Assembly (NCBI GenBank): GCA_016235445.1
Contig: JACRLB010000030.1
Location: forward strand, 1-64,000
Length of the DNA stretch: 64,000 bases
Reading direction: 5' to 3'
From: Chloroflexota bacterium
GTDB taxonomy: Bacteria > Chloroflexota > Anaerolineae > Anaerolineales > Villigracilaceae
The notes below the pieces were generated by a model that made no database searches, was not told the origin of the DNA, and saw only the letters and a list, made by a program, of their open reading frames with translations. Made by a program: the position numbers and the translations under genes. This document shows, piece by piece, positions 36,686 to 64,000 of this stretch. Positions within the stretch are counted from its first letter, which is position 1; the number at the start of each line of letters is the position of its first letter.

Positions 36686-36728
36686 TTAAGCATTGAATTA
36701 TTACTTGAATTATCCTAAGATTTATGTA

Positions 36729-37187: not shown

Positions 37188-37191
37188 ATAA

Positions 37192-38133
37192 ATGAAAATA
37201 AACGGTTGGACAAAAATATCAATTACGGCGTTTGTTTTTATACTTAGCCTTTTTGTTACAAATAATATACAAGCGGCATGTACATATACACCTTCTCCGC
37301 CAATTGGTCCTGATGATAATCCACCAAGTGAGCGGTGTAATAGTGTTGGTAGTGGATCTACGGGTATAACTGTATACGCTTGTTCAACAAATTATTTAGA
37401 GTATCCAGGGGTGAGGGCTTGTTATTGGCATGCCTTTAGTTGTGATTCTGCTTGTGGGGCGCCTGGGGGGCCTAGTGGGGGTGGGAATCCTGAATATCCC
37501 ACTTGTACAGCTGGACAGGTTTTGACTCCATATAGCCCAATGGGGACATTAAACAATAACCAATGTACTTTTGTTGATACTTGTTATAAATATTTCCCAA
37601 GTCTTTTTGCAATGACTGGCTGTGGCGGCATTGCTGCCAAAGGACGTTGTGATGTAAGTTATATGTGTTGCATCCCAGGGCAGGAAGTTTCATGCACAGG
37701 CACAGCAATCACCAGACAATCATACGGATGTTTGGCAGGCGAGGTCAAATTATCCGCATGGACAACCAGCGCCGTTGTAGATGGTGTGACGATCTTTACT
37801 CCTTATGTCAGTTGCAAGAGGGGATGCAGTTGTGTAACGCCGTGCGTACCATCCCAGCCCTCCATCCCAGCTTTGACAACCCCCGTAAATGGGGCGACAG
37901 TTGCAAGTACTACAGTAACTCTGGATTGGAACCCTGTAAGTTCATGGGGAACAGCATGTACCACGCCAGCAAATGAATACAGGGTTCGTGTGGGTCAAAT
38001 TGCCAATTTGACCTACGTTTATGGAGGCATCGCGGCAATTCCAAAGAAACTCCATGTCCCAAGGGGTGTCATCGCTCGTAAAATTAATATCATCCCTTCG
38101 GGATTTGGAATTCTTTCACGCAATTTTCTATAA
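37192..38133 (+). CDS. Secreted Cys-rich protein, 3'-truncated by repeats
   Basis: This 313-residue open frame has a signal peptide (cleavage near IQAACTY), a Cys-rich body of about 200 residues with many CxxC-like pairs, and the start of a fibronectin-III-like repeat (PALTTPVNGATVASTTVTLD). At NEYRVRV the frame runs into a palindromic repeat (37994-38012) and then repeat-derived codons to the stop. The Fn3-like domain is cut short, so the gene is probably a truncated form of a longer surface protein. Confidence 0.7.
   Translation: MKINGWTKISITAFVFILSLFVTNNIQAACTYTPSPPIGPDDNPPSERCNSVGSGSTGITVYACSTNYLEYPGVRACYWHAFSCDSACGAPGGPSGGGNPEYPTCTAGQVLTPYSPMGTLNNNQCTFVDTCYKYFPSLFAMTGCGGIAAKGRCDVSYMCCIPGQEVSCTGTAITRQSYGCLAGEVKLSAWTTSAVVDGVTIFTPYVSCKRGCSCVTPCVPSQPSIPALTTPVNGATVASTTVTLDWNPVSSWGTACTTPANEYRVRVGQIANLTYVYGGIAAIPKKLHVPRGVIARKINIIPSGFGILSRNFL
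37994..38012. repeat. Palindrome GTCAAATTGCCAATTTGAC
   Basis: A near-perfect 19-base palindrome at the point where the Cys-rich gene loses homology to an Fn3-like domain. It is the same family as in glyQS (5531-5549). It is followed by ATCCCTTCGGGAT hairpins (near 38091 and 38141) and a half element GCGTAAGGTGAGTTA. Confidence 0.8.
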
Positions 38134-41357: not shown

Positions 41358-41437
41358 GCATCCAAAAAGGCAAACCCATCGTGAGGTGGGGACGCAAAGT
41401 CATGGGTCTGTACCAACTACAGACCGCCAGGCTGCTG
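41358..41437 (+). ncRNA. Cyclic di-GMP-I (GEMM) riboswitch aptamer
   Basis: The aptamer has the conserved GGCAAACC, a P2 hairpin ACCCATCGTGAGGTGGG with a GNRA loop (GTGA), the GGACGCAAAGTC joint, and a P3 hairpin (GGTCTGTA...TACAGACC) followed by GCCAGGCTGC. These match the GEMM-I consensus in order and spacing. A terminator-like hairpin directly follows, so control is probably at transcription elongation of the subtilase gene. Confidence 0.9.
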
Positions 41438-41470
41438 AAGGCAATTATTTTCCTTTGGCAGTTTTTGTTT
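41431..41470 (+). terminator. Riboswitch expression-platform terminator
   Basis: CTGCTGAAGG faces CCTTTGGCAG around an AT-rich loop and is followed by TTTTTGTTT. Its 5' arm overlaps the 3' edge of the aptamer, so ligand binding should affect whether it forms. A strong AAGGAGGTGATG sequence follows (41471-41482). Confidence 0.75.
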
Positions 41471-49365: not shown

Positions 49366-49395
49366 TTGACGCATTGTGACCTTTGCATGTATAAT
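49366..49395 (+). promoter_or_regulatory. Promoter of the DUF4388-GTPase cluster
   Basis: TTGACG at 49366-49371, 18-base spacer, TATAAT at 49390-49395. It precedes the DUF4388 gene by 37 bases. Confidence 0.75.
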
Positions 49396-49432: not shown

Positions 49433-50239
49433 ATGGCCCTGCGTGGAAATTTACGCGATTTTACAATTACTCAACTGCTCAACCTGATCAACCTTGCCAG
49501 CAAGACTGGTACGTTGGTTGTGGATGGGACGTCGGAACAGGCCTTTATTTCATTTCGTGAGGGGAAGCTGGCGTACGCCCGCGTTGGCAGGGAAGATGGC
49601 GGCCTGGCGTCTGTCCTTCACAAGGCGAATAAGATCAACGCCAACCAGTATCGCGCGATTGCAGACCGTGCGGGGCAGATGACCGATAAAGAGTTGGGAC
49701 TGCTTCTGATTAATGCCGGGTATGTGACGCAGGAGGATATCCTGCTGAATTTGCAGGGCTATTTCACTGATGTGGTGCGCAGGTTGTTTACGTGGGTGGA
49801 AGGTATTTTCCGTTTTGAGAATGAGATGCTTCCGCCGGATGACCGCATCAATGTAAAGCTCGATCTTGAAAATATCATCATCGAAGGCTCGCGCCAGTTG
49901 CGTGAGCTGGAGCAGTTGAAGGATGAAATTCCGAGTTTGGATATGGCGCTCAAGTTTACCGATCGTCCGCTGACCAATGTGAATTTGAGTGTGGATGAAT
50001 GGAAAGTTGTAAAGTTTGTCGATCCGAAGAATACGATGCGTCAGATCGCGGGTACGAATAAGTTGACTGAAATTGAAGTCCGTAGAATTGTGTACGGTCT
50101 TTTGCAGGCTGGTTTGGTGGAATTGGTTCGCCCCGCAGGCGTGCCGACCCCGCCGAACCCGAAGATGTTCCCAACGCCGGACAAGGAAGAACAGAAATCA
50201 TTGATCAACAAACTGATCGGCCGCATTCGCACGATGTAA
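49433..50239 (+). CDS. DUF4388 (PATAN) domain protein
   Basis: This 268-residue protein has an N-terminal DUF4388/PATAN domain (MALRGNLRDFTITQLLNLIN, then GTLVVDG) and a C-terminal winged-helix-like part (MRQIAGTNKLTEIEVRRIVY). PATAN domains act as signalling adaptors, often with receivers or small GTPases. ATG 49433 has AGAGGA just upstream and is preferred over an in-frame ATG 57 bases earlier, because it starts at the domain. The GTPase gene follows after 28 bases. Confidence 0.87.
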   Translation: MALRGNLRDFTITQLLNLINLASKTGTLVVDGTSEQAFISFREGKLAYARVGREDGGLASVLHKANKINANQYRAIADRAGQMTDKELGLLLINAGYVTQEDILLNLQGYFTDVVRRLFTWVEGIFRFENEMLPPDDRINVKLDLENIIIEGSRQLRELEQLKDEIPSLDMALKFTDRPLTNVNLSVDEWKVVKFVDPKNTMRQIAGTNKLTEIEVRRIVYGLLQAGLVELVRPAGVPTPPNPKMFPTPDKEEQKSLINKLIGRIRTM

Positions 50240-50267
50240 TGCAAATCAGGTCAGAAGGATAAGAACT

Positions 50268-50807
50268 ATGCAAACGGTCAAAATGGTAGTGACGGGTCCA
50301 TTCAGCGCTGGCAAGACTCAATTCATTCAGTCTGTCAGTGAAATTGATGTTGTCGCCACGGAACGCAGAATCTCCTCCGATGAAGAACGCTCTGTAAAAT
50401 CGGCCACCACAGTGGCGATGGACTTTGGCCGCATCACGGTGGATGAGGATTTGGTGCTGTATCTGTTCGGGACGCCCGGTCAGAAACGTTTCGATTTCAT
50501 GTGGGAGATCCTCTCTGAGGGTATGCTGGGCTTTATTGTGATGGTGGACAGCACCCGCCCTGAGACCTTCCGCGAAGCGCGTTCGATCCTTGAGACCTTC
50601 CGCGCCTATGCCCCCACTCCTTTTGTGGTGGCCGCGAACAAACAGGATATGGAAGATTCCTGGGAACTTGAAGATGTGCGTCACGCATTACGGCTCGATA
50701 AACATACGAAGCTTCTACCCTGTGTTGCAACGGAGCGCGATACTGTAAAAACGGTATTGCTCGAGTTGCTGTATAGCATCCTAAACGAAATGGAATCCGG
50801 GAAGTAG
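50268..50807 (+). CDS. Small Ras-like GTPase (MglA-related)
   Basis: This 179-residue G protein has a P-loop GPFSAGKT (10-17), a switch I Thr region SATTVAMDFGR, a G3-like FGTPGQKRF and G4 NKQD. It lacks the standard DxxG Asp, reading GTPGQ, as in MglA-type and other bacterial small GTPases. Such proteins work with roadblock or PATAN partners in polarity and signalling. The DUF4388 gene upstream is the likely partner. AAGGAT precedes the start. Confidence 0.9.
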   Translation: MQTVKMVVTGPFSAGKTQFIQSVSEIDVVATERRISSDEERSVKSATTVAMDFGRITVDEDLVLYLFGTPGQKRFDFMWEILSEGMLGFIVMVDSTRPETFREARSILETFRAYAPTPFVVAANKQDMEDSWELEDVRHALRLDKHTKLLPCVATERDTVKTVLLELLYSILNEMESGK

Positions 50808-50826
50808 GGGCGGATAATCTTTTGCT

Positions 50827-51624
50827 GTGTCATCAATTACGACTGATCAAGGAATTGTTCATTATGAGGTTTACGGGCGGGGACGCCCTGTAATCCTTTT
50901 GCACGGATGGCTTGGTTCCTGGGGGTTATGGCAGGAGACCATGGCGTATCTGGGCGCGTTTTACCGCACCTATGCGTTGGATTTTTGGGGTTTTGGCGAA
51001 TCCGGTAAAAAGCGCGAGACTTATGCAGTCTCGGATTTTGTCAGCCTGGTAAATCAATTTATGGAGCAGTTGGGTATTGTCCATGCGCCGCTGGTTGGGC
51101 ACAGTATGGGGGGCACGGTCAGCCTTTCGGTTGCCATTAAATACCCGGAACGCGTCAGCAAAGTGGTGGTGGTGGGTTCGCCGATGGTAGGCTCATCGCT
51201 TGCGCCGCTGTTGAAGCTGGCAGGGAACCGCCCAATCGCTTTTATGTTGTTCAATATGATGGGTGTGTTCCGAACAGGGATGCGAATGTACTCTCCCATT
51301 ATCTGCAAGGACCCGCGTTTCCCGGCGATGATGGACCGCGATCTTTCGCGCACCACCGTTGAATCTTTCCTGCGCTCCATCGCTTCGCTTCGCCGCACTG
51401 ACCTGACACCCATGCTCCCGCAGATCAAGGTCCCCGCTATGGGCATCTACGGTGACAAGGATGTTATTGTCCATCCCCTGCAATGGCAGCCCATGCAAAA
51501 GGGGATTCCGCACTCGGTCATCGAGCGCTTTCCCGTTGCAGGTCACTTCCCCATGCTGGAAGAACCAACCATTTTCAGCCAGAAATTAAAAAACTTCCTC
51601 GACCAAGATTTTTCAATTTCATGA
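50827..51624 (+). CDS. Alpha/beta hydrolase with Ser nucleophile
   Basis: This 265-residue alpha/beta hydrolase has oxyanion motif LLHGWLGSWG, nucleophile elbow GHSMGG (Ser93), acid in YGDKDVI and His in AGHFPMLEEP near the end. It is a paralogue of the hydrolase at 63488: the first 100 residues align without gaps, but that protein has Asp at the nucleophile place. The substrate may be an ester or thioester lipid given the neighbours (inference). GTG start. It overlaps the next gene by 4 bases. Confidence 0.9.
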   Translation: MSSITTDQGIVHYEVYGRGRPVILLHGWLGSWGLWQETMAYLGAFYRTYALDFWGFGESGKKRETYAVSDFVSLVNQFMEQLGIVHAPLVGHSMGGTVSLSVAIKYPERVSKVVVVGSPMVGSSLAPLLKLAGNRPIAFMLFNMMGVFRTGMRMYSPIICKDPRFPAMMDRDLSRTTVESFLRSIASLRRTDLTPMLPQIKVPAMGIYGDKDVIVHPLQWQPMQKGIPHSVIERFPVAGHFPMLEEPTIFSQKLKNFLDQDFSIS

Positions 51625-52244
51625 GCAGTGAACCCCTCTTTTATCCCCAGAAAATGGGGAGAATTATTTTCCAGGGTATGGAGGAGGTGATCGGCAGGAG
51701 CGGGGTGGATTCGATCCTGCACCTTGCCTCACTCGATGCGCTGATTCTAGAGCGTCCGCCGGCGCGTGTGGACAAGACTTTCCCGTTTGAAACAGTGAGT
51801 ATCCTGCAACGTACCCTGGAGCAGGCTTTCGGTCCACGCGGGGGGCGCGGATTGGCCTTGCGCGCGGGACGGGCATCCTTCAAGTATGGCCTCAAAGAAT
51901 ATGGTTCCATGCTTGGCCTGACCGAAATGGCCTTCCGTTTATTGCCGCTCTCCACAAAACTGCACACTGGCGCAAAGGCGTTTGCCGACCTCTTCAACCG
52001 TTACACCGATCAACGGGTGCGGGTGGAGGAAAAAGAAAATAAGATATTCTGGCATATCGAGCGCTGTCCGCTTTGCTGGGAGAGGCAGGCGGAAGAGCCG
52101 GTCTGCCATTTGGCGGTGGGGCTGTTGCAGGAAGCCCTGTATTGGCTGAGCGGGGGCAAGGTTTTTGACGTGGAAGAGACTGCCTGCATCGCCCGCGGAG
52201 ACCAAACCTGTACTATCACGATAGATACAATTCCACTTTCGTAG
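51621..52244 (+). CDS. V4R-domain protein
   Basis: This 207-residue protein ends with a V4R (4-vinyl reductase) domain: RCPLCWE, VCHLAVGLLQEALYWL and a closing CIARGDQTC. Five Cys (149, 152, 162, 189, 197) could hold a metal. V4R domains bind small hydrophobic ligands and often sense them. It overlaps the hydrolase by 4 bases (ATGA), so the hydrolase product or substrate could be its ligand (inference). No DNA-binding domain. Confidence 0.8.
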   Translation: MSSEPLFYPQKMGRIIFQGMEEVIGRSGVDSILHLASLDALILERPPARVDKTFPFETVSILQRTLEQAFGPRGGRGLALRAGRASFKYGLKEYGSMLGLTEMAFRLLPLSTKLHTGAKAFADLFNRYTDQRVRVEEKENKIFWHIERCPLCWERQAEEPVCHLAVGLLQEALYWLSGGKVFDVEETACIARGDQTCTITIDTIPLS

Positions 52245-52305
52245 CGGGGCAGGTTTAATAACAGTTTTGTTTTGTAAACGGCGTGTCTTAACCCATACTT
52301 TGATT

Positions 52306-52311
52306 TATAAT
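52306..52311 (+). promoter_or_regulatory. -10 box with likely leaderless start
   Basis: TATAAT ends 8 bases before ATG 52320. Confidence 0.6.
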
Positions 52312-52319
52312 CCCTAATT

Positions 52320-53597
52320 ATGCTCAAGATCATTCTCCACGCGCACAATCAGATCATGCCTTTTTGCGAATCTGCGCGTGAACTGCGGATTCAAAATACG
52401 CCGCTTTGGCTGCACCAGCGTAATTTGCTTGCGCCATATGTGACCCGTGAGATGGAATTGAAGCAGGGGGAACGCCTGCAACCCGTCCGTGAACCGACCA
52501 TTGTCTATCGCGACAACCTGTTTTTCGACCAGGCCTACATTAATACATTCATGGAACAGGCAGTGAAACGCAACCGCCCTGTTCGGGCGGCTTTTCGCGC
52601 CGATGACCCTGCCTTTCGGGAACATGCTCTGCCGCTTTCCACATCCTACACGCCTGCGGGGAGTTTATACCTTGCAGACTTGTGGTATTACCCAAACGGT
52701 CCCATGGCGGGCGTCGAACCCCTGGTGATCGACATGCAAGCCCGGGAGATCGGCTACTATCACGTGCCAACCTACATGGGCGACCAGAGCGGCGACCTTG
52801 TTTTTCAAGTTCCCCTGCGCGCCATGATGGCAATCGATTCATGGGTGCATGTTTTTATTGCCGACATGGTGTTCGGTCAGTTTGCGCGCGGCGCGCGTTT
52901 TGAAAAGAAGGCCAACGAAGAACTTTCCTTCAAGCTCAAGATTATTGGCAAAGCCATTTATGAGGGACGCCAGGTATTGGAGTGTTCCGAAGCCGTAAAG
53001 GTCGGCAGGAATTGTGTGATCGACCCAAGCGCGGTCATCAAAGGACCTGCGATCATTGGGGATAATGTCACCATTAACGCGGGGGCTGTGATCGACAACA
53101 GCATTATTGGAAACAATGTCAATGTTGGGCAGGGCGCGCAGGTGATGCTTTCAGTAGTGGGGGATGGCGCCTTCCTGCCTTTCCGCGCCTCATTATTCAT
53201 GACGACCATGATGGAAAACAGCATGTTGGCTCAAAACACCTGCCTGCAAATGTGCGTGATCGGAAGAAATACCTTTATCGGCGCAGGTTCTACGTGGACG
53301 GATTACAACCTGATTCCCACTCCCATCCGTGCGCGGGATGGGAACGGCAAGTTGAGCATTTCCAACCGCCCGGTCATCGGCGGCTGTGTCGGGCATAATT
53401 GCCGCATTGGTTCGGGGATGATCATTTACCCTGCGCGCACCATCGAGTCGGATGTGGTGCTGGCCGCTTCTGCCGAACGCCGCCTGATAGACCGCGATAT
53501 TACTTTTGACCAAAGCGACCATCACCATTTACGGCTGGCACACTTGCACCAAACTCCATACCACAGACATTTGAAAGCCGAGGTGGAGTCGTGGTAA
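52320..53597 (+). CDS. Left-handed beta-helix (GlmU-like) protein
   Basis: This 425-residue protein has an N-terminal part of unknown fold (1-220) and a left-handed parallel beta-helix (~225-395) built from hexapeptide turns such as VKVGRNCVIDPSAVIKGPAI and IGDNVTINAGAVI. Such helices occur in sugar-nucleotide and acyl transferases. The N-terminal part lacks the nucleotidyltransferase G-rich loop, so the enzyme class is unclear. The C terminus is His-rich. A REP-like sequence separates it from the reductase-like gene 24 bases on. Confidence 0.82.
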   Translation: MLKIILHAHNQIMPFCESARELRIQNTPLWLHQRNLLAPYVTREMELKQGERLQPVREPTIVYRDNLFFDQAYINTFMEQAVKRNRPVRAAFRADDPAFREHALPLSTSYTPAGSLYLADLWYYPNGPMAGVEPLVIDMQAREIGYYHVPTYMGDQSGDLVFQVPLRAMMAIDSWVHVFIADMVFGQFARGARFEKKANEELSFKLKIIGKAIYEGRQVLECSEAVKVGRNCVIDPSAVIKGPAIIGDNVTINAGAVIDNSIIGNNVNVGQGAQVMLSVVGDGAFLPFRASLFMTTMMENSMLAQNTCLQMCVIGRNTFIGAGSTWTDYNLIPTPIRARDGNGKLSISNRPVIGGCVGHNCRIGSGMIIYPARTIESDVVLAASAERRLIDRDITFDQSDHHHLRLAHLHQTPYHRHLKAEVESW

Positions 53598-53605
53598 AAG
53601 GTTAT

Positions 53606-53620
53606 CGAGCGTAGTCGAAA
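53606..53620. repeat. REP-like sequence in the reductase gene leader
   Basis: GAGCGTAGTCGAAAC, related to the palindromes at 988 and 2032, sits directly before ATG 53622 and replaces a normal ribosome binding site. Confidence 0.5.
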
Positions 53621-53621
53621 C

Positions 53622-54728
53622 ATGGATAGCTTCGCCTTCATCATTCACCCCATCGATCCCAAGCGCGATGTCAGCCGCAAGTTTCCGTTTTTAGGCAAGG
53701 TACTTTCAGAACGACAGATCGATTTTTTCTCCACCTTCTTTCCCCCCGTTTATATTTCGGAGATCGAAGGGATTACATCTCAATCTACTGGCAAGACCAT
53801 CAAAGGCTGGTTCATTGCCTGCCCGTACACCCCGCGCCGCATGATGCAGTTGCCTGAGCGCACGGTCTATCGTAAAATTATCCAAACAGGCCGCGCGGCT
53901 GAAAAACTCGGCGCGAACATTCTTGGCCTCGGCGCTTTCACTTCGGTGGTCGGCGATGCGGGCGTGACGATTGCAAACGCGCTGGAAATTCCCGTTACCA
54001 CAGGTGACTCTTTCACAGTAGCAATGGCGGTGCAAGCCATACGGGATGCGGCCAAAGTGATGGATATAAAAATGGAAGATGCGACGGTGGCCGTCGTGGG
54101 CGCCACAGGAGCGATCGGACGCGTCTGCTCCGCGCTGTTGGCTGGGGAGGCCGCCCGGACATTGCTCGTGGCCCGGGATGAGAAAAAACTAGAAGTTCTT
54201 CGAGACAGGCTTCAGATTAAAGCGCGAAGCGAGCTTGTCATCAGCACGAAGATGGATGTTTTAAAGGATGCTCAATTGATTTTAACGGTAACAAGTTCCA
54301 TTCATGATGTCATCCGCCCCGAACATTTACAGCCGGGCAGTGTGGTGTGCGATGTGGCGCGCCCCCGTGATGTTTCTGCAATGGTGGCGGCAGTGAGAGA
54401 TGATATATTAGTGATTGACGGCGGCATGGTGGATGTGCCAGGCCCCGTGGATTTCCATTTTAACTTTGGTTTTCCTGAGGGCAAAGCCTATGCCTGCATG
54501 GCCGAGACGATTGCCCTGGCGTTGGAAGGCCGCTTTGAAGATTACACAGTCGGCAGGGAAATTACGCTGGAACGCGTACAGGAAATTACCGCGATCTCGG
54601 AGAAACACGGGTTTCGCATGAGTGGTTTCCGCTCGTTCGAGCGCGAAGTGACCGAAGAACAAATTGAAGCCGTTAGACATAACGCCCGCACAGGGAAACG
54701 ACGCGCTTACGGAGTACCGCATAAATAA
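53622..54728 (+). CDS. Acyl-ACP-reductase-like enzyme
   Basis: This 368-residue protein resembles the long-chain fatty acyl-ACP reductase (AAR) of cyanobacteria. Matching segments: EKLGANILGLGAFTSVVG, TTGDSFTVAMAVQAIRDA, the Rossmann motif VAVVGATGAIGRVC (157-170), and AYACMAETIALALEGRFEDY, whose Cys292 aligns with the thioester-forming Cys of AAR. A C-terminal EISEKHGF-type end also fits. AAR makes fatty aldehydes from acyl-ACP; in cyanobacteria a deformylating oxygenase follows, but none is here. The aldehyde's fate, and whether the substrate is acyl-ACP, are inference. Confidence 0.78.
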   Translation: MDSFAFIIHPIDPKRDVSRKFPFLGKVLSERQIDFFSTFFPPVYISEIEGITSQSTGKTIKGWFIACPYTPRRMMQLPERTVYRKIIQTGRAAEKLGANILGLGAFTSVVGDAGVTIANALEIPVTTGDSFTVAMAVQAIRDAAKVMDIKMEDATVAVVGATGAIGRVCSALLAGEAARTLLVARDEKKLEVLRDRLQIKARSELVISTKMDVLKDAQLILTVTSSIHDVIRPEHLQPGSVVCDVARPRDVSAMVAAVRDDILVIDGGMVDVPGPVDFHFNFGFPEGKAYACMAETIALALEGRFEDYTVGREITLERVQEITAISEKHGFRMSGFRSFEREVTEEQIEAVRHNARTGKRRAYGVPHK

Positions 54729-54771
54729 TGAAGCGCTTAGTAATTAATGCAACCAGCGGTAGGAGGCTCAT

Positions 54772-55677
54772 ATGAGTAATGCTCGCCTTTTGGTAGTGGA
54801 AGACGATATCGATATCGCCAACATGTTGAAGATCTATTTTACGGGTCTTCAGTATGATGTGGATGTTGCGAATCGCGGAAAGGATGCCCTGGACAAGACC
54901 AAGCAGGTCCTGCCGCATTTGATCGTGCTGGATATCATGCTGCCCGATATTGACGGGTATGAGGTCTGCCGCACCTTGCGCACCAGCACACGTACCAGCC
55001 ATATCCCGGTCATCTTCCTGACGCAAAAAGATGAACGCAGTGACAAATTGCAGGGTCTTGAACTGGGCGCGGACGATTACATCACCAAGCCTTTCGATAT
55101 CGAAGAATTGAAACTGCGGGTCCAGGGCGCCATCCGCCGTTCGGAACGCGAAAGCCTCACCGACCCGCGCTCTGGTTTGCCCGCAGGGCGTTTGATCGAA
55201 GAGCAGTTACGCCGCATCATCCGTGAGGAGAAATGGGCGCTGTTGGATGTGCGCATCAATAACTTTGAGGCCTTCAAGGATGTGTATGGCTTTGTGGCTG
55301 GCGACGATGTGATGCGTTTTGCCGCGATGCTGATCGGCGAGGTGGTGGACGAGTTGGGCACAACCAGCGATTTTATCGGTCATGCGGGAGGCGACAACTT
55401 CATCATCATTACCACCCATGAGGCCGCTTCAAACATTCGCCAGAAATTGAAGGATCGTTTTGCGGCTGAAGTGCAAAGCCACTATAACTTTATCGACCGC
55501 CAGCAGGGTTTCATCCAGGCGCCCAAAGCGGAAGGCGGCGTGGAAAAAGTGGGTTTTATGAACTTCTCAGCGGGAATGGTTTCGCCGAGCCTGCATTCGT
55601 TTGCCGATATTCGTGAGATCACTGAACTTGCGGCTGAAGCTCGAAGACAGGACGCGGCGGCCGCCTCCACCGCGTAA
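54772..55677 (+). CDS. Receiver plus degenerate GGDEF protein
   Basis: This 301-residue protein has a receiver domain (1-122) with phospho-acceptor Asp54 (LIVLDIMLPD) and a GGDEF-like domain (~135-290) with HAGGDNF in place of GGDEF. The catalytic Glu is Asn, so it likely does not make c-di-GMP; it may bind GTP or act as a protein-interaction unit. TAGGAGG precedes the ATG. It lies between the reductase-like gene and the giant kinase, its probable partner. Confidence 0.9.
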   Translation: MSNARLLVVEDDIDIANMLKIYFTGLQYDVDVANRGKDALDKTKQVLPHLIVLDIMLPDIDGYEVCRTLRTSTRTSHIPVIFLTQKDERSDKLQGLELGADDYITKPFDIEELKLRVQGAIRRSERESLTDPRSGLPAGRLIEEQLRRIIREEKWALLDVRINNFEAFKDVYGFVAGDDVMRFAAMLIGEVVDELGTTSDFIGHAGGDNFIIITTHEAASNIRQKLKDRFAAEVQSHYNFIDRQQGFIQAPKAEGGVEKVGFMNFSAGMVSPSLHSFADIREITELAAEARRQDAAAASTA

Positions 55678-55692
55678 AGGTAAGATTTTTCC

Positions 55693-58600
55693 ATGCCTTC
55701 CGGGTTGGGAGTTAGCCTGTTTCTTGCTGGGCTGGTGGTAGTTGCGCTGGTCTGGGCGGTTTTACGTTTTTTGCCGCGCTTCCAATCGGACCCCCACACT
55801 GTCGGAAATTCCTTTATATTCCCCAAAACATCAAAATCAAACGAAGCCATCATCATCCTCCAACCTGGAGGGCGGGTGGAATTTATTAACGATCTGGCGC
55901 GTTCCTATTTTGAACTGCGCGAGAACGAGCCGTATGATCTCGAAAACCTTGCGCGGCGGGTACGCCCCTCCGATGATTTTCTGGATCTGTGCGCCGCTCC
56001 CGGCCATAAACGTGTTTCCATCGGCGGAAAGCTGGTGGAAATTGCTTCTTACGAGATACCGGGCGTTTACCCAATGATGTTGATCTCTTTGCGCGGCAGG
56101 GAACTCCCTGCGATGGATCAGAACAACGGCGCAACGGAAGAGGTCTTGCAGGTGGCGTCAGAATTCAGCCAGGGAATCGCGGCCAGCCTCAATCTTGAAT
56201 CGACGGCTCGATCCATCCTGGATAATGTCGGCCGCCTGATACCTTCGGAAGTTCTTGAGCTTAAATTGTGGAATGAGGAACGCCAGGCCCTGATTCCATA
56301 TCGTTTCCAACAACCCAGTTCAGCCCGCGTGGTAACTGCTTCACTTTCCAAGTTTGGAAGCCTGACAGACTACCTCGTCGCGCGCCGCGCGCCGATTCTG
56401 CTTGCCGATACGCGCGCGCCATCCGAGTTCATCAAAAGCAATGAACTGCTTTTGATTCGTTCTTATTTGGGCATCCCCCTCATTGCGGGCGGCGAGCTGG
56501 TTGGAACGTTGGAAGCAGGCCAGACCAGCGGCGGAGTGTTCGGCCAGCACGACCTCGACCTTTTATCCCTGATCTCCGGCCAGGCAGGGGTGGCGATCCG
56601 CAATGCCAAATTGTACGAAGAGGAACAAAAACGCGGCTCGGAACTCGCCGGCCTTGCAAACCTCAATCAAGCGCTGGGTTCTGCGCGTGATTTGGAGAAT
56701 GTTTTTTCAAGGCTTGTCGAGAGCGTTGCGCCGTTGTTCCCCGCTGAAATCATTGGGTTCTTGCTCTACGATGAAGAGAAACGCACCCTTGAAGGCAAAC
56801 TGCCCTTCCATGGACTGCCCGCCCATTTTGTTCATATCTACCGCGCTGTGGTGCCCGTGGATAGCCCTGCCGAAAAAATCATCGCAAGCCAGAAACCCAT
56901 CATTACCCAAAGCACCATTGGTGACGAGAATTGGCGCGCCCTCGGCCTTGCGGATGTAGCCATCGCGGCAAGTCTGCGAGATAACGCACTCGTCCCGCTT
57001 CTTTCTTCGGGACGGATGCTCGGCTACTTTCAAGTTGGTCATCACACCCGCGGCGGGTCCGCTTTTACAACAGAAGAACTTCGATTAATGAACATTGTGG
57101 CAAACCAGGCCGCCGCCATCATCGAGAACGTGCTTCTCGTTCAGCAGGCGCGCACCCGCGCACAACGCGCAGACGCCTTGCGCCGCATTGCCAGCCTTTC
57201 CGGCTCCTCCGCCACGCTGGATGAAACCCTTAAATACTCCGTTCAGGAACTGGCGAATCTCCTCCAGGCAGACGCAGGCGCGATCTTCCTCATGGATGAA
57301 ACGCGCGGCGCATTACGCCTGAGCCGCGAATCCATGTTTGGCGTATCGGAGGATATCAGCAGTTCTTTTATTCAAATATTTATAGATGACCCCAATTACC
57401 GATACACAGTTTCAGGCAGTCAAAAGGCATTTATATCTGGCCACCTGGGCACAGACCGAAGAATCCTGCCGGCCTATCGCCCGCTGGCAACTGCGTTAAT
57501 GATGGAATCAGTCATTGTCGTCCCGCTGGTTGTGCGTGAACGCAGTATCGGCGAACTCATGTTGGGCAGTAGGAAAGTTGATTACTTTAACTCCTATGAC
57601 CTCCAGATCGTCTCCACCGCAGCCGGCCAGCTTGCAACAGCAATCGAATCTGCCAGCCTGCTTGCTCAAACAGACGTCTCGCTCCGCAGGCGGGTAGACC
57701 AGCTTTCTGCGCTCGCACGCATCAGCCGCGAACTGGGCGCCTCGCTGGATGTTAAACACCTGCTCGAGATTGTGCATGATGAAGGCCTGCGGACTGTGCA
57801 GGCACATTGTTCAACTGTCATCCTCTTCGAACAAGGCGGCAATGAACGCCCCGACCCCCGGCCGCAATATTTTTTCGGCTGTGAAAACCTGCGAGATTTG
57901 AACAACATCGAGCGGACGGTCTTGAAAACCGGCGAGCCGCATATTGTCGCTGATTTTTCCCAGGAGAAAACAGCAGAACCCCACGAGGGAGCGCGCTCGG
58001 CAATTACTGTGCCAATCACCTATCAGGCAAACACGATCGGCTTAATCAACCTTCATGCCGTTTCGACAGACTTTTTCACCCCGCAAGTAACCGAGTTGGC
58101 GCAAACCCTGGCCGCGCAGGCGGGCATTGCCTTGAGCAATGCCCAGCGCTATCAGGCCGAAAAACAACGCAGTGAATTGATGCGCCGCCGCGCCGATACC
58201 CTCGTCCGCCTTACGGATGTGAGTTACAGCCTCGGGCACGACCAGCCCCTGGACCAGGCCCTGCAGATCGTTGCGCGCGGTATTCGCGATTCAACACCTT
58301 TCCGTGTGGTGTTGATGAGCATTCTTGAACTTGAAACCGGGCTGATGCGCCGCCTGACTGCGGTGGGTATTCCACAGGAAACGTTGAATGAATTGCTGTC
58401 TCGAAAACAGCCGCTTTCCAGCCTTCTGCAAATCATGAGGCCGGAGTTCAAGATTAGCCGTTCCTACTTCATCCCTGTGGATCAGGCTCCCGTCATTCCG
58501 TCTGATTTGCACATGGTTACGTTGGATGTTTCTGCATCTGTGGATGCAGGCGGTAATACCTGGCGCGCCGATGACATATTGCTTATCCCGCTTGAAAATG

Positions 58601-61600
58601 CCGAAGGGCAGGTTGTAGGACTCGTCAGCCTGGACGATCCCTCCAATGGACTGCGCCCAGACAAGGCGACGATTGAAGCGGTGGAGGTTTTTTCGGCCCA
58701 GGCCGCATTATTAATCAGCAATACCATTCGCCAGAGCGAACTGCGGGCGCGGATAGAATCGCTTTCTTCCGGGCTCCAACGCCAGCAGAAATTACTCGAT
58801 ATTACACAGAACGACCTGCCTGTTCTGCTTCACAAAGACCTCGAGCAAACCATCTCCCTGCACAATTTGGACCGCCGCGCCCAGCGTGTGCGCGCCGGGC
58901 TGGCCATCACCGAATCCGTCAGCCGCCAGTTGGATACCTCCTCGGCCTTGTCTGCGCTGGGGCGCGAGACATTGACCCAGCTTGGCATGTCTGTTGCGCT
59001 GGTGGCTGAAAATACCCCGGATGGCCCCCGTCTTTTGCATGTGCTGGGAAGTTTCCCCCGCTCCACAAATGTCGAAGCATTATTCGGCCAGCGCAATCCC
59101 TTGCGCGCCAGTTTACAAAGCGGGAAGCCGATCCTCATTTCCAATTTGGATGAAGATGACGAATGGCGCGATGCGTCTCTCTTAACCTCATTGCGGGCCA
59201 AGGGCGTCATCTGCCTGCCGGTGCTGGTCGAAAACAAGCCTGTCGCGGCAATGCTTGCGGTCAGCCCGGAACCCATGCCAGATTTCACAGAGGAAGATCA
59301 CCAGGTCTATTTGCAGATTTCCCAGCAGACCTCCCTGATCCTGCAAAATATTTCCCTGCTGACTCAGACCCGCAGAAGACTGGATGAGGTGAATCTACTG
59401 CTCGATTTCAGCCGCCAACTGTCGGCTATGGATCCGGAGGCGATCATCAAATCCCTGCTGGATAGCTCGCGAAGAGTCCTTCCACATGCTCATGCAGGCA
59501 TGGTGCTGATCTGGAATCCGAAAACCGAAATTCTGATACCGCGGGCCGCCTCAGGGTACGCAGATAACAACAGCATGATGGAAATTAATTATCGGGCAGG
59601 CGAAGCCCTGCCCGGCCATACATTCATGAACAAAAGCTCTCGCCGCGTGGACGAGATCAACTTTGCGCGTGATTACAATTTGAGCGCCGAAAACCTGGCC
59701 TTGTACCGCCAGGCCACCGGCGGACGTTTGCCCGTTTCAAGTTTGCTGGTGCCCATCGTTTCTTCCGATCAAAACCTGGGCCTGCTCGTGCTGGATAACT
59801 TCAACACAAGCTCTGCCTTCCGCCCCGAAGATGAAGCCCTTTTGTTTTCACTCGCCCAGCAGATTGCCCTCTCGCTGGATAACCTGCGGCTTGTGCAAAC
59901 CACCCAGGAACGCGCCGGGCAATTGCAAGCCCTGAACGATGCCGCCGCTTCCCTAACCTCCAGCCTGAGCAGTGACCAGTTGGTCAATTCCCTGCTCGAT
60001 CAGTTAAGCTCCATCCTTCCCTATGACACCGCCGCCCTCTGGCTTCGCGATAAAGACCGCCTTACCATTGCCTCGGCGCGCGGTTTTTCAGATGCCGAAC
60101 AACGCCTCGGCCTGACGGTTTCGGTTTCAGACAGCGCGCTCTTCAAAGAAATGGCGCAAACCGGCCAGCCGATCCTCATCAAGGATGTGCGCGAAGATTC
60201 GCGCTTCCTGCCTGTGGAAGCCCCGCGCCTTTCCTGGCTGGGCATCCCGTTGATATCAAAAGGCGAGTTGGTCGGCGCGCTCGCCGTGGAAAAATGGCAG
60301 GCAAACTTCTACACCCGCGAACAAATGCAGGTTGGGCTTACCTTTGCCAGCCAGTCTGCGGTTTCATTGGATAACGCCCGCCTCTACGAAGACAGCGTCA
60401 GCCGCGCCACAGAACTGGATCAGCGCTCACAGCGTCTTTCCACTTTGAACCGCTTCACAACCGCCCTGACCGGATTGCTGGATGCAGAGCACATCCTGAA
60501 TTTAACTGCGGATGAATTGCTCAAAGGCCTGGGCGTGCGCCGCGTCTCTGTCGTGACCTTTGAGCGGGGTCAGGCATACTGGAAGATTACCGCCCCCCGC
60601 ACACGCATCAAACTTCCAAAATCCCTGCCAGATGCGCCCATCTTCAGCCGCTTGCGCGAATCGCTGGGCATCTTCAACACCGATGACGCCCGCAGTGAAC
60701 CAGACCTGGCCGACCTGGCCGAAATGCTGGGCGAAAATACAACCGCCCTGCTTGTCCTGCCCCTTGCAAGCGAAGGAATCCTCACCGCCTTAATCTTTGC
60801 CCAAATGACGGGCGAATCGCGTTTTGGGGTCAATGAACTTGAAGTGGCCCGCACCATCACCAACCAGGCTACCATCGCGTTGGAAAATGCCCGTTTGTAT
60901 CAATCCTCTGTCCGTACGGCGGAGCGTTTTTCCATCCTCAATGAATCAAGCGCCCTCATCAGCGCCAGCCTCGACCCCGAAGAGGTGTACGTCTCGGTGC
61001 ATAAAGCGGCGGAACGCCTCATCCCATTGGACTCATTTGTGATCACTCTCTATGATGAAGCGACGAACGAAGTGGACCCTGTCTACTTGTTTGATCTTGG
61101 AAAAAGAGTGATGAGTGGGCGGGTTCCCTTTGGAAAAGGCATGAGCAGTGAAGTGATAAAGAGTGGAAAACCCCTCCTGATTTCCAACAGCGTGCAGGCA
61201 GGCCACCTGGGTACGATACAGGCTGGCGAAGGCGATGGAACGGAGTCCATCGTGGCCGTTCCCATGATCGTTGGAAACAAGACGCGCGGTATGCTTTCGG
61301 CCCAAAGCTATCAATCGGGCATCTATACCGCAGAGGATATGCAGATCCTCGGCACGCTCGCAAACCAGGCCATCATCGCCATCCAAAACGGACGCCTGTT
61401 CGAAGAAACCCAAAATCTTGCATCCAATCTCGAACTGCGCGTTGTGGAACGCACCGCCCAGCTACAGCATGAACAACAGAATACAGAAACCCTCCTGCGC
61501 ATTCTTACAGAAGTATCCTCCAGCCTCGACCTGGACCGCGCCCTCAACCGTACATTGTCATTGCTAAACGATGCCATCGGCGCGGAACAAGGTACCATTT

Positions 61601-63096
61601 TGCTTGTACATGCCGAAGACAACCTCCTTCATTATCGCGCCGGGTATGGATACCTTTCAGACCGCACTGCTCCCGGAAGCCGCGGCTTTACCTTGAAAAT
61701 TGGCGAAGGCCTGGCTGGCTGGGTTGTACAGCATCGCGAAGCGGTGCTGGTCAATGACTTGCACGAGGACCCGCGCTGGGTGCGGAGTACCGCCGCCGGG
61801 CAGGATCACCGCAGCGCCATCACCGTGCCCATGCTGGTAGGTGAGGATGTCATCGGCGTGATGATGGTTTTCCAGCGCGCGCCAAACTTCTTCAGTTCTG
61901 AAATGCTCATTCTGGTGAAAGCCATTGCAGGCCAGGTGGCTGTGGCAATTAATAATGCCCACCTGTATGAACTCATCCGCGATCAGGCCGAACGCCTCGG
62001 TGTGATGCTGCGCAAAGAGCAGGAGGATGCCAGCCGTTCCCAGGCCATCCTCGAAGCCGTGGCAGATGGCGTGCTCGTCACAGGCTCGGACAACCGCATC
62101 ACCTTCGTCAACTCGTCCACCGAGCGCATTCTTGGCGTGAACGATACCCGCCTGCTGGGCAATTCGCTGGATAAGGTGGGTGGTTTGTACGGTAAGGCCG
62201 CCACTGGCTGGGCTGAAACCATTCGGCATTGGTCTGAAGACCCATCCTCGTATGAGACGGGAGATTCCTACGCAGAACAGGTGGAATTGGAGAACGAGCG
62301 CATTGCCCTCGTCCACCTTGCGCCTGTGATTTTGCAAAACGATTTCCTCGGCACAGTCTCCATCATCCGCGATATTACACATGAAGTGGAAGTGGACCGC
62401 TTGAAGTCGGAATTTGTGGCCACCGTCAGCCATGAACTGCGCACCCCGATGACAGCCATCAAAGGATACGTGGATATTCTAACGATGGGCGCCGCAGGCG
62501 CATTGAACGAAAACCAGGTGCATTTCCTCGAGGTGGTACGAAATAACATCGAAAGGTTGAATACCCTCGTCAGTGATTTGCTGGATATTTCCCGCATCGA
62601 AGCGGGACGCATCACGCTCAACCCGCAATCTGTGGACTTGCACAGCATTGCCGAAGATGTGGTCGCTGAAGTTTTACACCGCTCTCAAAGGGAAAGCAAA
62701 CCCATGGCGCTCTCCCTCGATGCTCCAAAGACCCTGCCGCTCGTCATTGGCGATGGCGACCGCGTGCGGCAGATACTGGGCAACCTTGTGAACAACGCTT
62801 TTAATTACACGCCCCAGAATGGAACCATCCGCGTAAACCTCCACCACGAGAATGGAGAAGTGCAGGTGGATATTCATGATAACGGCGTCGGCATTGCGCC
62901 CGAAGACCAGGCCCGCGTATTCGAGCGCTTCTTCCGCGGGGAGAATCCGCTTGTGCTTGCAACGCCCGGAACAGGCCTCGGCCTGCCAATCGTCCGTCAA
63001 CTGGTGGAGATGCACAAGGGGCGTATTTGGATGACCAGCACGGGCGTGCCGGGTGATGGCAGTACCTTCTCCTTCACCCTGCCCATCCGTAAATAA
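55693..63096 (+). CDS. Giant 11-GAF sensor histidine kinase
   Basis: This 2,467-residue protein has an N-terminal transmembrane helix (~5-25), a PAS-like segment (~55-135), then eleven GAF domains starting near residues 144, 314, 489, 664, 829, 1057, 1224, 1404, 1575, 1739 and 1925. A PAS domain lies near 2116. The HisKA H-box has VSHELRTPMTAIKGYV with His2247. The HATPase has NLVNNAFNYTP, DNGVGIAPED and GTGLGLPIV. All kinase motifs are intact. GAFs bind small ligands such as cyclic nucleotides or bilins, but no specific ligand motif is clear. The receiver 10 bases downstream is its likely target. Confidence 0.93.
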   Translation: MPSGLGVSLFLAGLVVVALVWAVLRFLPRFQSDPHTVGNSFIFPKTSKSNEAIIILQPGGRVEFINDLARSYFELRENEPYDLENLARRVRPSDDFLDLCAAPGHKRVSIGGKLVEIASYEIPGVYPMMLISLRGRELPAMDQNNGATEEVLQVASEFSQGIAASLNLESTARSILDNVGRLIPSEVLELKLWNEERQALIPYRFQQPSSARVVTASLSKFGSLTDYLVARRAPILLADTRAPSEFIKSNELLLIRSYLGIPLIAGGELVGTLEAGQTSGGVFGQHDLDLLSLISGQAGVAIRNAKLYEEEQKRGSELAGLANLNQALGSARDLENVFSRLVESVAPLFPAEIIGFLLYDEEKRTLEGKLPFHGLPAHFVHIYRAVVPVDSPAEKIIASQKPIITQSTIGDENWRALGLADVAIAASLRDNALVPLLSSGRMLGYFQVGHHTRGGSAFTTEELRLMNIVANQAAAIIENVLLVQQARTRAQRADALRRIASLSGSSATLDETLKYSVQELANLLQADAGAIFLMDETRGALRLSRESMFGVSEDISSSFIQIFIDDPNYRYTVSGSQKAFISGHLGTDRRILPAYRPLATALMMESVIVVPLVVRERSIGELMLGSRKVDYFNSYDLQIVSTAAGQLATAIESASLLAQTDVSLRRRVDQLSALARISRELGASLDVKHLLEIVHDEGLRTVQAHCSTVILFEQGGNERPDPRPQYFFGCENLRDLNNIERTVLKTGEPHIVADFSQEKTAEPHEGARSAITVPITYQANTIGLINLHAVSTDFFTPQVTELAQTLAAQAGIALSNAQRYQAEKQRSELMRRRADTLVRLTDVSYSLGHDQPLDQALQIVARGIRDSTPFRVVLMSILELETGLMRRLTAVGIPQETLNELLSRKQPLSSLLQIMRPEFKISRSYFIPVDQAPVIPSDLHMVTLDVSASVDAGGNTWRADDILLIPLENAEGQVVGLVSLDDPSNGLRPDKATIEAVEVFSAQAALLISNTIRQSELRARIESLSSGLQRQQKLLDITQNDLPVLLHKDLEQTISLHNLDRRAQRVRAGLAITESVSRQLDTSSALSALGRETLTQLGMSVALVAENTPDGPRLLHVLGSFPRSTNVEALFGQRNPLRASLQSGKPILISNLDEDDEWRDASLLTSLRAKGVICLPVLVENKPVAAMLAVSPEPMPDFTEEDHQVYLQISQQTSLILQNISLLTQTRRRLDEVNLLLDFSRQLSAMDPEAIIKSLLDSSRRVLPHAHAGMVLIWNPKTEILIPRAASGYADNNSMMEINYRAGEALPGHTFMNKSSRRVDEINFARDYNLSAENLALYRQATGGRLPVSSLLVPIVSSDQNLGLLVLDNFNTSSAFRPEDEALLFSLAQQIALSLDNLRLVQTTQERAGQLQALNDAAASLTSSLSSDQLVNSLLDQLSSILPYDTAALWLRDKDRLTIASARGFSDAEQRLGLTVSVSDSALFKEMAQTGQPILIKDVREDSRFLPVEAPRLSWLGIPLISKGELVGALAVEKWQANFYTREQMQVGLTFASQSAVSLDNARLYEDSVSRATELDQRSQRLSTLNRFTTALTGLLDAEHILNLTADELLKGLGVRRVSVVTFERGQAYWKITAPRTRIKLPKSLPDAPIFSRLRESLGIFNTDDARSEPDLADLAEMLGENTTALLVLPLASEGILTALIFAQMTGESRFGVNELEVARTITNQATIALENARLYQSSVRTAERFSILNESSALISASLDPEEVYVSVHKAAERLIPLDSFVITLYDEATNEVDPVYLFDLGKRVMSGRVPFGKGMSSEVIKSGKPLLISNSVQAGHLGTIQAGEGDGTESIVAVPMIVGNKTRGMLSAQSYQSGIYTAEDMQILGTLANQAIIAIQNGRLFEETQNLASNLELRVVERTAQLQHEQQNTETLLRILTEVSSSLDLDRALNRTLSLLNDAIGAEQGTILLVHAEDNLLHYRAGYGYLSDRTAPGSRGFTLKIGEGLAGWVVQHREAVLVNDLHEDPRWVRSTAAGQDHRSAITVPMLVGEDVIGVMMVFQRAPNFFSSEMLILVKAIAGQVAVAINNAHLYELIRDQAERLGVMLRKEQEDASRSQAILEAVADGVLVTGSDNRITFVNSSTERILGVNDTRLLGNSLDKVGGLYGKAATGWAETIRHWSEDPSSYETGDSYAEQVELENERIALVHLAPVILQNDFLGTVSIIRDITHEVEVDRLKSEFVATVSHELRTPMTAIKGYVDILTMGAAGALNENQVHFLEVVRNNIERLNTLVSDLLDISRIEAGRITLNPQSVDLHSIAEDVVAEVLHRSQRESKPMALSLDAPKTLPLVIGDGDRVRQILGNLVNNAFNYTPQNGTIRVNLHHENGEVQVDIHDNGVGIAPEDQARVFERFFRGENPLVLATPGTGLGLPIVRQLVEMHKGRIWMTSTGVPGDGSTFSFTLPIRK

Positions 63097-63106
63097 TGGA
63101 GTAGGA

Positions 63107-63481
63107 ATGGCGAGAATTTTGATAGCAGAAGACGAACCCGATATCCGCGAACTTGTGGCCTTCACCCTGCGCTTTGCAGGCCATGAAGTCATTGCCACCT
63201 CCAATGGGGAGGAGGCATTAAACCAGGCATTCGAGGTCATCCCGGACATCATCCTCATGGATGTGCGTATGCCGCGCATGACCGGTTACGACGCCTGCCG
63301 CGCCATGAAAGCCGACCCCACCCTCAAGGATATCCCCGTTGTTTTTCTCTCGGCAAAGGGACAAGATTCCGAAATTCAAACCGGGTTGGATGCCGGCGCC
63401 GAAGAATACCTGCTCAAACCCTTCGCCCCCGACCAACTCACCGAACGTGTAAAAGCCATTCTGGGAAAATTTGGAAAATAA
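63107..63481 (+). CDS. Single-domain response regulator
   Basis: This 124-residue CheY-like receiver has the acidic pair in IAEDEPD, phospho-acceptor Asp52 in IILMDVRMP, and Lys in YLLKPFAPD. It is intact, with no output domain. ATG 63107 has GGAGTAGGA just before and is chosen over an in-frame ATG inside the kinase gene. It is the probable phosphorylation partner of the giant kinase. Confidence 0.93.
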   Translation: MARILIAEDEPDIRELVAFTLRFAGHEVIATSNGEEALNQAFEVIPDIILMDVRMPRMTGYDACRAMKADPTLKDIPVVFLSAKGQDSEIQTGLDAGAEEYLLKPFAPDQLTERVKAILGKFGK

Positions 63482-63487
63482 GCCTGC

Positions 63488-64000
63488 ATGAGCGCAATCA
63501 TTCTCGACGGTTCGATGGTGCATTACGAGGCTCTGGGACGAGGCCGCCCCGTTGTCTTCCTGCACGGCTGGGCCGGCTCATGGCGCTATTGGATCAACTC
63601 CATGCAGGTCGCGTCCACATCCTTCCGCGCCTACGCCGTAGACCTCTTCGGCTTCGGCGATACAAGCCGCGACCCCCTGCGCTACACCCTCGAAAAGCAG
63701 GCCGACCTCATCAATCGCTTTCTCGAAGAAATGGGCATCGGCAAAGTTGCCCTCGTCGGCCATGACCTTGGCGCGTTGGTTGCGCTTGCATTCATCAAGC
63801 AACAGCCAAAGAGCGTGGATCGGGTCATGGCAATCAACTGTCCGCTTGAGTATGATGCGCTTAATTCCCGAATGCGGACGGCCCCCGCGACGGAACTTGT
63901 CGAATGGTTGACATCCCGCACGCCCGAAGCGCTCGCCGCCCTTTCAGACGCCTCAAAGGTCGACCCGCAAGCTGTTTCTGTTTCGATGACCGGGCTCCAA
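63488..64000 (+). CDS. Alpha/beta hydrolase with Asp nucleophile (cut by window end)
   Basis: The first 171 residues are visible, open to the window edge. Oxyanion motif FLHGWAGSWRYW and nucleophile elbow VGHDLGALVAL give Asp93, the type found in epoxide hydrolases and haloalkane dehalogenases. It is a clear paralogue of the protein at 50827, which has Ser93 (HGWLGSWGLW, GHSMGG). It follows the receiver after 6 bases. The C-terminal catalytic residues are not visible. Confidence 0.85.
   Translation, partial: MSAIILDGSMVHYEALGRGRPVVFLHGWAGSWRYWINSMQVASTSFRAYAVDLFGFGDTSRDPLRYTLEKQADLINRFLEEMGIGKVALVGHDLGALVALAFIKQQPKSVDRVMAINCPLEYDALNSRMRTAPATELVEWLTSRTPEALAALSDASKVDPQAVSVSMTGLQ

Follow-up and report, generated by a model that had tools for sequence, protein, structure and literature searches.

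In TRAPP, Bet3-fold proteins help act on a Rab GTPase, and the eukaryotic and Asgard TRAPP set brings together three folds: V4R/TRAPPC3, roadblock and Ras-like GTPase. The MglA/MglB polarity switch of Myxococcus and Thermus is formed of a Ras-like GTPase and a roadblock protein, with receiver proteins acting on it, and PATAN (DUF4388) proteins are described as sometimes encoded beside the MglA or MglB genes (PMC4316618). The actinobacterial conservons (CvnA-D) are described in the same source as one system made of a kinase, a GTPase, a roadblock protein and an accessory protein. Here we analyzed a cluster of ten genes at 49433-64000 (+) of a 64,000-nucleotide stretch of DNA (the window) from a bacterium of the Anaerolineae, a class of Chloroflexota, and compared it with these systems. 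We put at slightly better than even, about 0.53, the probability that the cluster is a Ras-like GTPase signalling system with a switch of the MglA/MglB type, in which a V4R protein is a regular partner, which is wired to a multi-GAF kinase, and to which a reductase, a beta-helix (LbH) protein and hydrolases are accessories. The established part of this reading is the conserved gene order, the near-perfect co-occurrence of the GTPase, roadblock and V4R genes, their repeated adjacency and the fold of the V4R protein.

The window lies on contig JACRLB010000030.1 (C18) of a 4.13-Mb draft genome (GCA_016235445.1). Open reading frame positions and Pfam domains bear out the original prediction of ten codirectional genes, which are spaced by 6-75 bp apart from a single 4-base overlap. 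Their order is DUF4388, GTPase, ABH1, V4R, LbH, reductase, response regulator with GGDEF (RRG), multi-GAF kinase, receiver and ABH2. The last gene is cut by the window end and is completed in the 457-base remainder of the same contig, to 262 aa in total. A promoter-like site just 5' of the first gene was the top one of 15 matches in the scanned region. The features are as follows.

49366..49395, + strand: promoter-like site (TTGACG, 18 bases, TATAAT), sigma-70-like with 11/12 matches, a consensus match only.
49433..50239, + strand: DUF4388 (PATAN) protein, 268 aa; Pfam DUF4388, 87.4 bits.
50268..50807, + strand: MglA-superfamily (Ras-like) small GTPase, 179 aa; Pfam ATP_bind_1/Ras/Arf.
50827..51624, + strand: ABH1, alpha/beta hydrolase with intact Ser-Asp-His triad; Abhydrolase_1, 109 bits.
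51621..52244, + strand: V4R protein, 207 aa, TRAPPC3/Bet3-H-NOX-PoxR fold with a Cys-rich (putative Zn) site; Pfam V4R, 46 bits (cut-off 31), and model.
52320..53597, + strand: LbH protein, hexapeptide beta-helix plus an N-terminal part; Hexapep, 55.6 bits.
53622..54728, + strand: thioester (acyl-ACP) reductase-like protein, 368 aa, Rossmann; nearest to the PigE N-domain, then AAR.
54495..54497, + strand: codon of the predicted catalytic Cys292 of the reductase, aligned with AAR Cys294.
54772..55677, + strand: RRG, response regulator with degenerate GGDEF; Response_reg, 98 bits, and GGDEF, 41.5 bits.
55693..63096, + strand: multi-GAF, PAS, histidine kinase, 2467 aa; 10 GAF stretches (Pfam), HisKA, 75 bits, and HATPase_c, 100.6 bits.
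63110..63481, + strand: single-domain receiver; Response_reg, 101 bits.
63488..64000, + strand: ABH2, second alpha/beta hydrolase, running past the window; Abhydrolase_1, 77.5 bits on the in-window part.

The original prediction was staked in part on synteny in relatives, and synteny was found. We collected 80 relatives (L031-L110) via the reductase, so that they are reductase-bearing by construction, and all 51 of them with at least 20 kb of sequence keep the same gene order. All ten genes are present in 42 of the 51; V4R alone is absent in six, and the whole DUF4388-GTPase-ABH1-V4R block in three. The order is kept at 18 loci outside the family of the window, where the identity of DUF4388 is 43-64% (17 loci) and that of the GTPase 71-79%. 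The identity of the reductase is 95% to an Anaerolineales bin (L031) and 88% to a Ca. Villigracilaceae bin (L055). The ten genes are a conserved unit.

We searched 120 genomes of the class (G000-G119) with the GTPase, the V4R protein and a roadblock protein encoded on contig C41 of the window's genome, and counted as cluster-type a reductase of at least 47% identity. A partial 44% reductase match in G049 was dropped, an LbH match at 27% in G058 was retained, and roadblock matches that were weaker or partial, on 22 contigs, were scored for presence and excluded from adjacency. The GTPase was present in 55 genomes, the roadblock protein in 55, V4R in 57, LbH in 39 and the cluster-type reductase in 35. 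GTPase and roadblock share 54 genomes, GTPase and V4R 54, and roadblock and V4R 53 (Fisher p <=1.2e-26 for this co-occurrence, uncorrected for relatedness); as exceptions, G108 has the GTPase without roadblock and G109 has roadblock (a weak match) without the GTPase. LbH and the reductase are near-subsets of the GTPase genomes, 38 of the 39 LbH genomes also having the GTPase.

Same-strand adjacency was scored at up to 1500 bp for V4R and the GTPase, which 40 genomes show, and at up to 400 bp for the two roadblock pairings, with V4R (26 genomes) and with the GTPase (five of the 55 GTPase genomes). In the window's genome no roadblock gene lies within four genes of the GTPase, the distance at which the two are called coupled (PMC4316618). 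When we examined 15 GTPase loci from the 17 GTPase genomes that have no LbH, DUF4388 adjoined the GTPase in all 15, V4R lay downstream in 13 and roadblock was present in three; in G005 and G100 the order is DUF4388-GTPase-roadblock-V4R. The steadiest core is DUF4388, the MglA-superfamily GTPase and V4R, with roadblock encoded elsewhere in the window's genome. This arrangement differs from the MglA/MglB switch in that the roadblock gene is usually unlinked and V4R is a regular partner.

The same neighbourhoods bear on whether V4R is merely a ligand sensor for the kinase/receiver circuit, lying beside the GTPase and roadblock genes as part of a common operon and making no contact with their products. 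Known bacterial V4R domains do bind aromatic ligands (MopR and PoxR structures), and in four families outside the class (f71, f81, f107 and f110) V4R, present in 7 of 14 loci, lies in the LbH-RRG-kinase block, away from the GTPase. In the GTPase genomes without LbH, however, V4R lies within 900 bp of the GTPase in 12 of 17, and queries with the RR-GGDEF, receiver and kinase gave no match in 11 of these 12 stretches. Moreover, the pairing of V4R with roadblock is old, since 22 of 23 roadblock-linked rows of the V4R tree fall in one branch (support 98), which takes in 10 rows of different context and stands separate from the cluster V4R; long branches meet in this tree, and it was, like the other tree used here, a quick search under LG+G4 with SH-aLRT support only. 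Taking these together, we regard a sensor confined to the kinase circuit as unlikely.

The roadblock pairing is also seen in the window's own genome, which has roadblock genes on C41 and C24 and the GTPase on C18. A second locus, outside the window (C41:174761-175775; L191, 6758-7775, - strand), encodes roadblock, V4R and a receiver-degenerate-GGDEF protein consecutively. Away from the ten-gene cluster, 28 V4R loci were compared: 20 have this roadblock-V4R-RRG trio, four have V4R and RRG only and four have V4R alone. A HAMP-domain protein is encoded upstream of the trio in L191.

In f71, f81, f107 and f110 the DUF4388-GTPase and LbH-RR-kinase blocks are found at separate places, and the nearest GTPase relative adjoins DUF4388, with no V4R or roadblock match beside it (9/9 loci). 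That the blocks are separate outside the class and joined in Anaerolineae suggests that the two act together. In family f70 (L178) DUF4388, GTPase, V4R and LbH are all in one cluster, and in f62 (L250) a roadblock gene adjoins the GTPase. Among more distant GTPase relatives outside the class, two have no DUF4388 match and one has a weak match. A further link of GTPase and roadblock was seen in L255 (G352:C24), also outside the class, where a roadblock-like gene and a weak DUF4388-like gene lie directly ahead of a distant GTPase relative.

The V4R protein belongs to the V4R family both by its Pfam score (46 bits, over the cut-off of 31), which is independent support, and by a predicted fold of the TRAPPC3/Bet3 type. 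The model has a mean predicted local distance difference test score (pLDDT) of 94.8. Foldseek and VIA-align matched it to human guanylate cyclase and H-NOX (Z up to 14.7), to Thorarchaeal TRAPPC3 (7yh3; Z 14.6, 149 aligned, root-mean-square deviation 2.7) and to mouse Bet3 (1wc9; Z 13.3), the guanylate cyclase and H-NOX scoring like 7yh3; the model also shares the PoxR fold, MopR and PoxR structures being among the matches. The V4R profile found no match among PDB sequences up to E 0.1, which leaves the model as the basis of the fold link. H-NOX proteins carry a conserved heme-ligand histidine, and no invariant or nearly invariant His was seen in 26 aligned V4R proteins. Cys162, Cys189 and Cys197 are invariant and Cys149 and Cys152 nearly so (26 sequences), a pattern in keeping with TRAPPC3 and PoxR, for which a four-Cys metal site is described (PMC10933270). 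Hydrophobic ligands such as palmitate or phenols are reported to bind V4R-fold proteins (PMC10933270, PDB titles).

Homology of V4R and Bet3 has been argued, and a 2008 proposal makes V4R the ancestor of Bet3 while leaving open its prokaryotic role and any early service in membrane traffic (PMC2253512). A 2024 study of Asgard archaea describes all three parts as present, and describes the small GTPase genes of MK-D1 as generally lying outside the roadblock, longin and TRAPPC3 operons, so that it is difficult to tell which partners belong together (PMC10933270). It is a tentative and rather doubtful thought that the Anaerolineae hold a bacterial counterpart of the TRAPP-Rab set, in which a Ras-like GTPase would be under the control of V4R and roadblock, the three being linked genetically throughout the class, and V4R would be a lipid-gated regulator or tether of the GTPase. 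The three folds match, whereas the cluster is bacterial, the match at sequence level is to V4R only, and H-NOX structures score equally.

The GTPase is a small GTPase of the MglA family in the sense of a Ras-like G domain of ~150-240 aa with a P-loop and NKxD, its length being 179 aa. It has a single match in its own genome at E 0.001, and its PDB matches include solved MglA chains (E 1.8e-5). The P-loop GPFSAGKT, LFGTPGQ and NKQD are nearly or fully invariant in 99 aligned rows; for this and the other residue counts below, rows were excluded if they fell below identity limits (40% for the reductase, 55% for the GTPase, 35% for ABH2) or were of odd length, and some genomes are represented twice. 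In the G3 motif of Myxococcus MglA it is an Asp that is replaced by Thr, and at the place of this Asp Gly was found in 99/99 rows. Because its G3 motif is GTPGQ, as opposed to the Thr-type motif reported for Myxococcus MglA (PMC3000849), we do not class the GTPase as a canonical Myxococcus-type MglA.

Turning to the signalling proteins of the second block, the kinase holds a PAS domain beside its GAF repeats, HisKA and HATPase, and Pfam passes 10 GAF stretches, not the 11 originally counted. The phospho-acceptor Asp of the single-domain receiver is kept in 82/82 rows, and the receiver Asp of RRG in 142/142. At the position that we take to be the first metal-binding Asp of the GGDEF domain, RRG has Arg, Gly, His or Lys in 139/142 rows. 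It therefore lacks the intact metal site of an active diguanylate cyclase, in agreement with its earlier description as degenerate.

CvnC of the conservons is DUF742, and the C-terminus of the DUF4388 protein was considered as a relative of it; this was rejected, as there was no DUF742 Pfam match and only a weak HTH_9 one (E 0.14). The cluster is not a conservon, since there is no roadblock gene in its operon and no DUF742 match. It also differs in having V4R, a 10-GAF kinase and receivers, the last of which conservons are described as lacking (PMC4316618).

The two hydrolases look different from each other. The triad residues of ABH1 are kept in 95/95 rows; the nucleophile column of ABH2 holds G in 43, D in 22, N in 7 and A in 4 of 79 rows, with Asp in the window copy, and ABH2, judging from these residues, has probably kept the hydrolase fold while turning into a receptor or scaffold without catalytic activity. 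LbH is well conserved (mean column identity 80%, 28 sequences), and its N-terminal 220 aa have no Pfam match. The LbH model has a mean pLDDT of 56.4, and its Foldseek rows are mostly nucleotidyltransferases, with a best E of 1.5e-3 and thus no match at 0.001 or better. The N-terminal part may be a nucleotidyltransferase-like domain, inactive as judged by eye, a reading made weak by the low-confidence model and the lack of a match at that level. RRG, ABH2 and LbH thus look like former enzymes, and such an apparent loss of enzyme function in several proteins would suit a signalling assembly better than a pathway.

The reductase resembles the acyl-ACP reductase TIGR04058 and the N-terminal reductase of PigE in its fold, catalytic Cys and NADPH motif. 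NCBIfam gave PigE first (229.7 bits, cut-off 850, confined to positions 2-360 of 837 of the model) and AcACP_reductase TIGR04058 second (132.2 bits, cut-off 449.7). It differs from them in lying below both curated cut-offs and in having no fused C-terminal aminotransferase, and its genome has no match to a deformylating oxygenase. The absence of this oxygenase and the retention of the catalytic Cys had both been predicted and both stand. A search of the genome with PF11266 gave no match; the positive control hit two of 14 genomes, Synechococcus elongatus among them. In alignment Cys292 falls on Cys294 of solved AAR, and it is present, as are the Rossmann glycines Gly160 and Gly163, in 142/142 aligned rows. 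PigE Cys296 and AAR Cys294 are reported as equivalent, and reduction of a thioester by PigE is also reported (PMC8341465). From these residues the cluster reductase looks catalytically competent.

An intact reductase invites the explanation put forward originally, in which the cluster is built round this enzyme and the fatty aldehyde it makes is detected by the V4R and GAF domains, which pass the signal to the GTPase. The binding of palmitate or phenols by V4R-fold proteins in solved structures (PMC10933270) would suit it, and so would the distribution of the reductase, since all 35 genomes with the cluster-type reductase carry GTPase, roadblock and V4R. The reductase is, however, absent from 20 of the 55 GTPase genomes (19 if the partial match of G049 is counted), so that an aldehyde signal cannot be the general design. 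Moreover, 34 of the 120 genomes have reductase and LbH jointly, and the reductase thus belongs with LbH rather than with V4R.

The loci themselves lead to the same point. LbH and RRG lie close by on one strand in 111 rows (110 loci and the window), with the reductase between them in 85 and not in 26. The 85 comprise 71 of the reductase-found L031-L110, 13 other loci and the window; many of the 26 were chosen for lacking the reductase, so that 26/111 is not a frequency, and the unselected figure is the reductase in 34 of the 39 LbH genomes. Twelve of the 26 are Anaerolineae, and all 12 keep GTPase, LbH and RRG, nine with V4R, at an LbH-RRG gap of 17-566 bp. The other 14 are from families outside the class, with a gap of -25 to 42 bp, and at these loci the GTPase was not found. 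One locus of a sister family (L131) keeps nine of the ten genes, all except the reductase, with a gap of 197 bp. On a tree of LbH, RRG and GTPase, which took 65 of the 111 rows, a minimum of 10 changes is required to explain where the reductase is present. This enzyme is a frequent, dispensable accessory, and the cluster is not built round it.

V4R as a sensor of the reductase product was rejected as a candidate because V4R presence did not follow reductase presence on the tree (median p = 1 from 9 independent pairs), a test of low power in which V4R differs in ~4/9 pairs, too few for 0.05; V4R absence in some of the 111 rows may also reflect contig ends. The V4R proteins of L131 and L132, which lack the reductase, are strongly divergent and had at first looked supportive, but L133, L134, L135, L142, L148, L149 and L179, also reductase-less, keep an ordinary V4R. 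We consider the aldehyde relay rather improbable, and it is not supported as a general role, although an aldehyde may signal to V4R or GAF domains in lineages that have the reductase.

Separately, reductase and LbH lie on separate contigs in G055 (L144 and L143) and G146 (L146 and L145), implying that the reductase can probably also exist apart from the cluster. Relatives of the reductase were also seen elsewhere in Chloroflexota, outside the cluster (L115:9102-11288(-), L151:9285-11357(-), L152:9032-11083(+), L154:8004-10286(+)). These long frames have ~310 additional N-terminal residues with no Pfam match (4/4 scanned) and share almost no neighbour genes.

The enzymes could instead be the business of the cluster, with reductase, LbH transferase and ABH1 forming a lipid or envelope modification pathway and the kinase, receivers and GTPase serving just to control or position it. 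The complete conservation of the ABH1 triad and the reductase Cys, and the ties of a well-conserved LbH to the reductase in 34 shared genomes, speak for such a pathway, and PigE-type reductases are reported to feed aldehydes to a partner enzyme (PMC8341465). Among the ten genes, however, Pfam and NCBIfam gave nothing that clearly uses an aldehyde, such as an aminotransferase or oxygenase, the LbH domain may be inactive (by eye, on a weak model), the ABH2 nucleophile is lost in most rows, and LbH-less loci retain the switch and drop the enzymes. We give this pathway little credence.

Under the preferred reading, a GTPase switch with V4R as a regular partner, V4R and roadblock would act on the same GTPase, and V4R, probably after binding a hydrophobic ligand, would set the nucleotide state or the location of the GTPase. 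The multi-GAF kinase would signal to the switch via the two receivers, with the degenerate GGDEF domain serving as a protein contact, and DUF4388 (PATAN) would be the output arm, possibly acting on surface motility or cell polarity. In many lineages, though not all, the reductase, LbH and the hydrolases may produce, modify or detect a ligand derived from lipid.

Several points weigh against this reading. G035, G067 and G114 have V4R without the GTPase and G074 has the GTPase without V4R, V4R is missing from the cluster in 6 of the 51 relatives and in three more together with its neighbours, and it is not beside the GTPase in f71, f81, f107 and f110. The window's genome encodes its roadblock proteins away from the GTPase gene. 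VIA-align itself cautions that a common arrangement can give mostly helical models Z scores such as those of V4R. The V4R model has no C-terminal tail like that of Bet3, which is said to reach the nucleotide pocket of Rab (PMC11016934). The interaction and activity claims are drawn from gene order and fold, and motility or polarity as the output is a guess.

Elsewhere in the window, a c-di-GMP-I-GGC riboswitch (41360-41440 (+), 68 bits) lies ~120 bp 5' of a subtilase with a PA domain (41561-44101 (+)), which suggests that the subtilase is a protease controlled by cyclic di-GMP. The stretch 35882-38133 (+) is of low G+C (0.40 in 36001-38000), and its open reading frames resemble, by eye, small lipoproteins and Cys-rich secreted proteins; it is possibly foreign DNA.

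A table in PMC8756737 names DUF4388, Srp102 (GTPase), MhpC and glmU among the neighbours of NirS in Anaerolinea thermolimosa. In the open-licence literature, within the portions of text that were accessible, we found no paper on a bacterial V4R-roadblock-GTPase set or on this Anaerolineae system. What is new here is that V4R, roadblock and a Ras-like GTPase are tied to one another in bacteria. If the TRAPP-Rab-like reading were true, it would give the V4R-to-Bet3 lineage a GTPase role that predates eukaryotes, a point left open by Podar et al. 2008. Because the pairing of V4R, roadblock and GTPase is visible in bacterial gene order, such a complex is testable with three small proteins. Our analysis points to a conserved signalling system of the Anaerolineae; filamentous bacteria of their phylum are described as abundant in activated sludge (PMC10746286).

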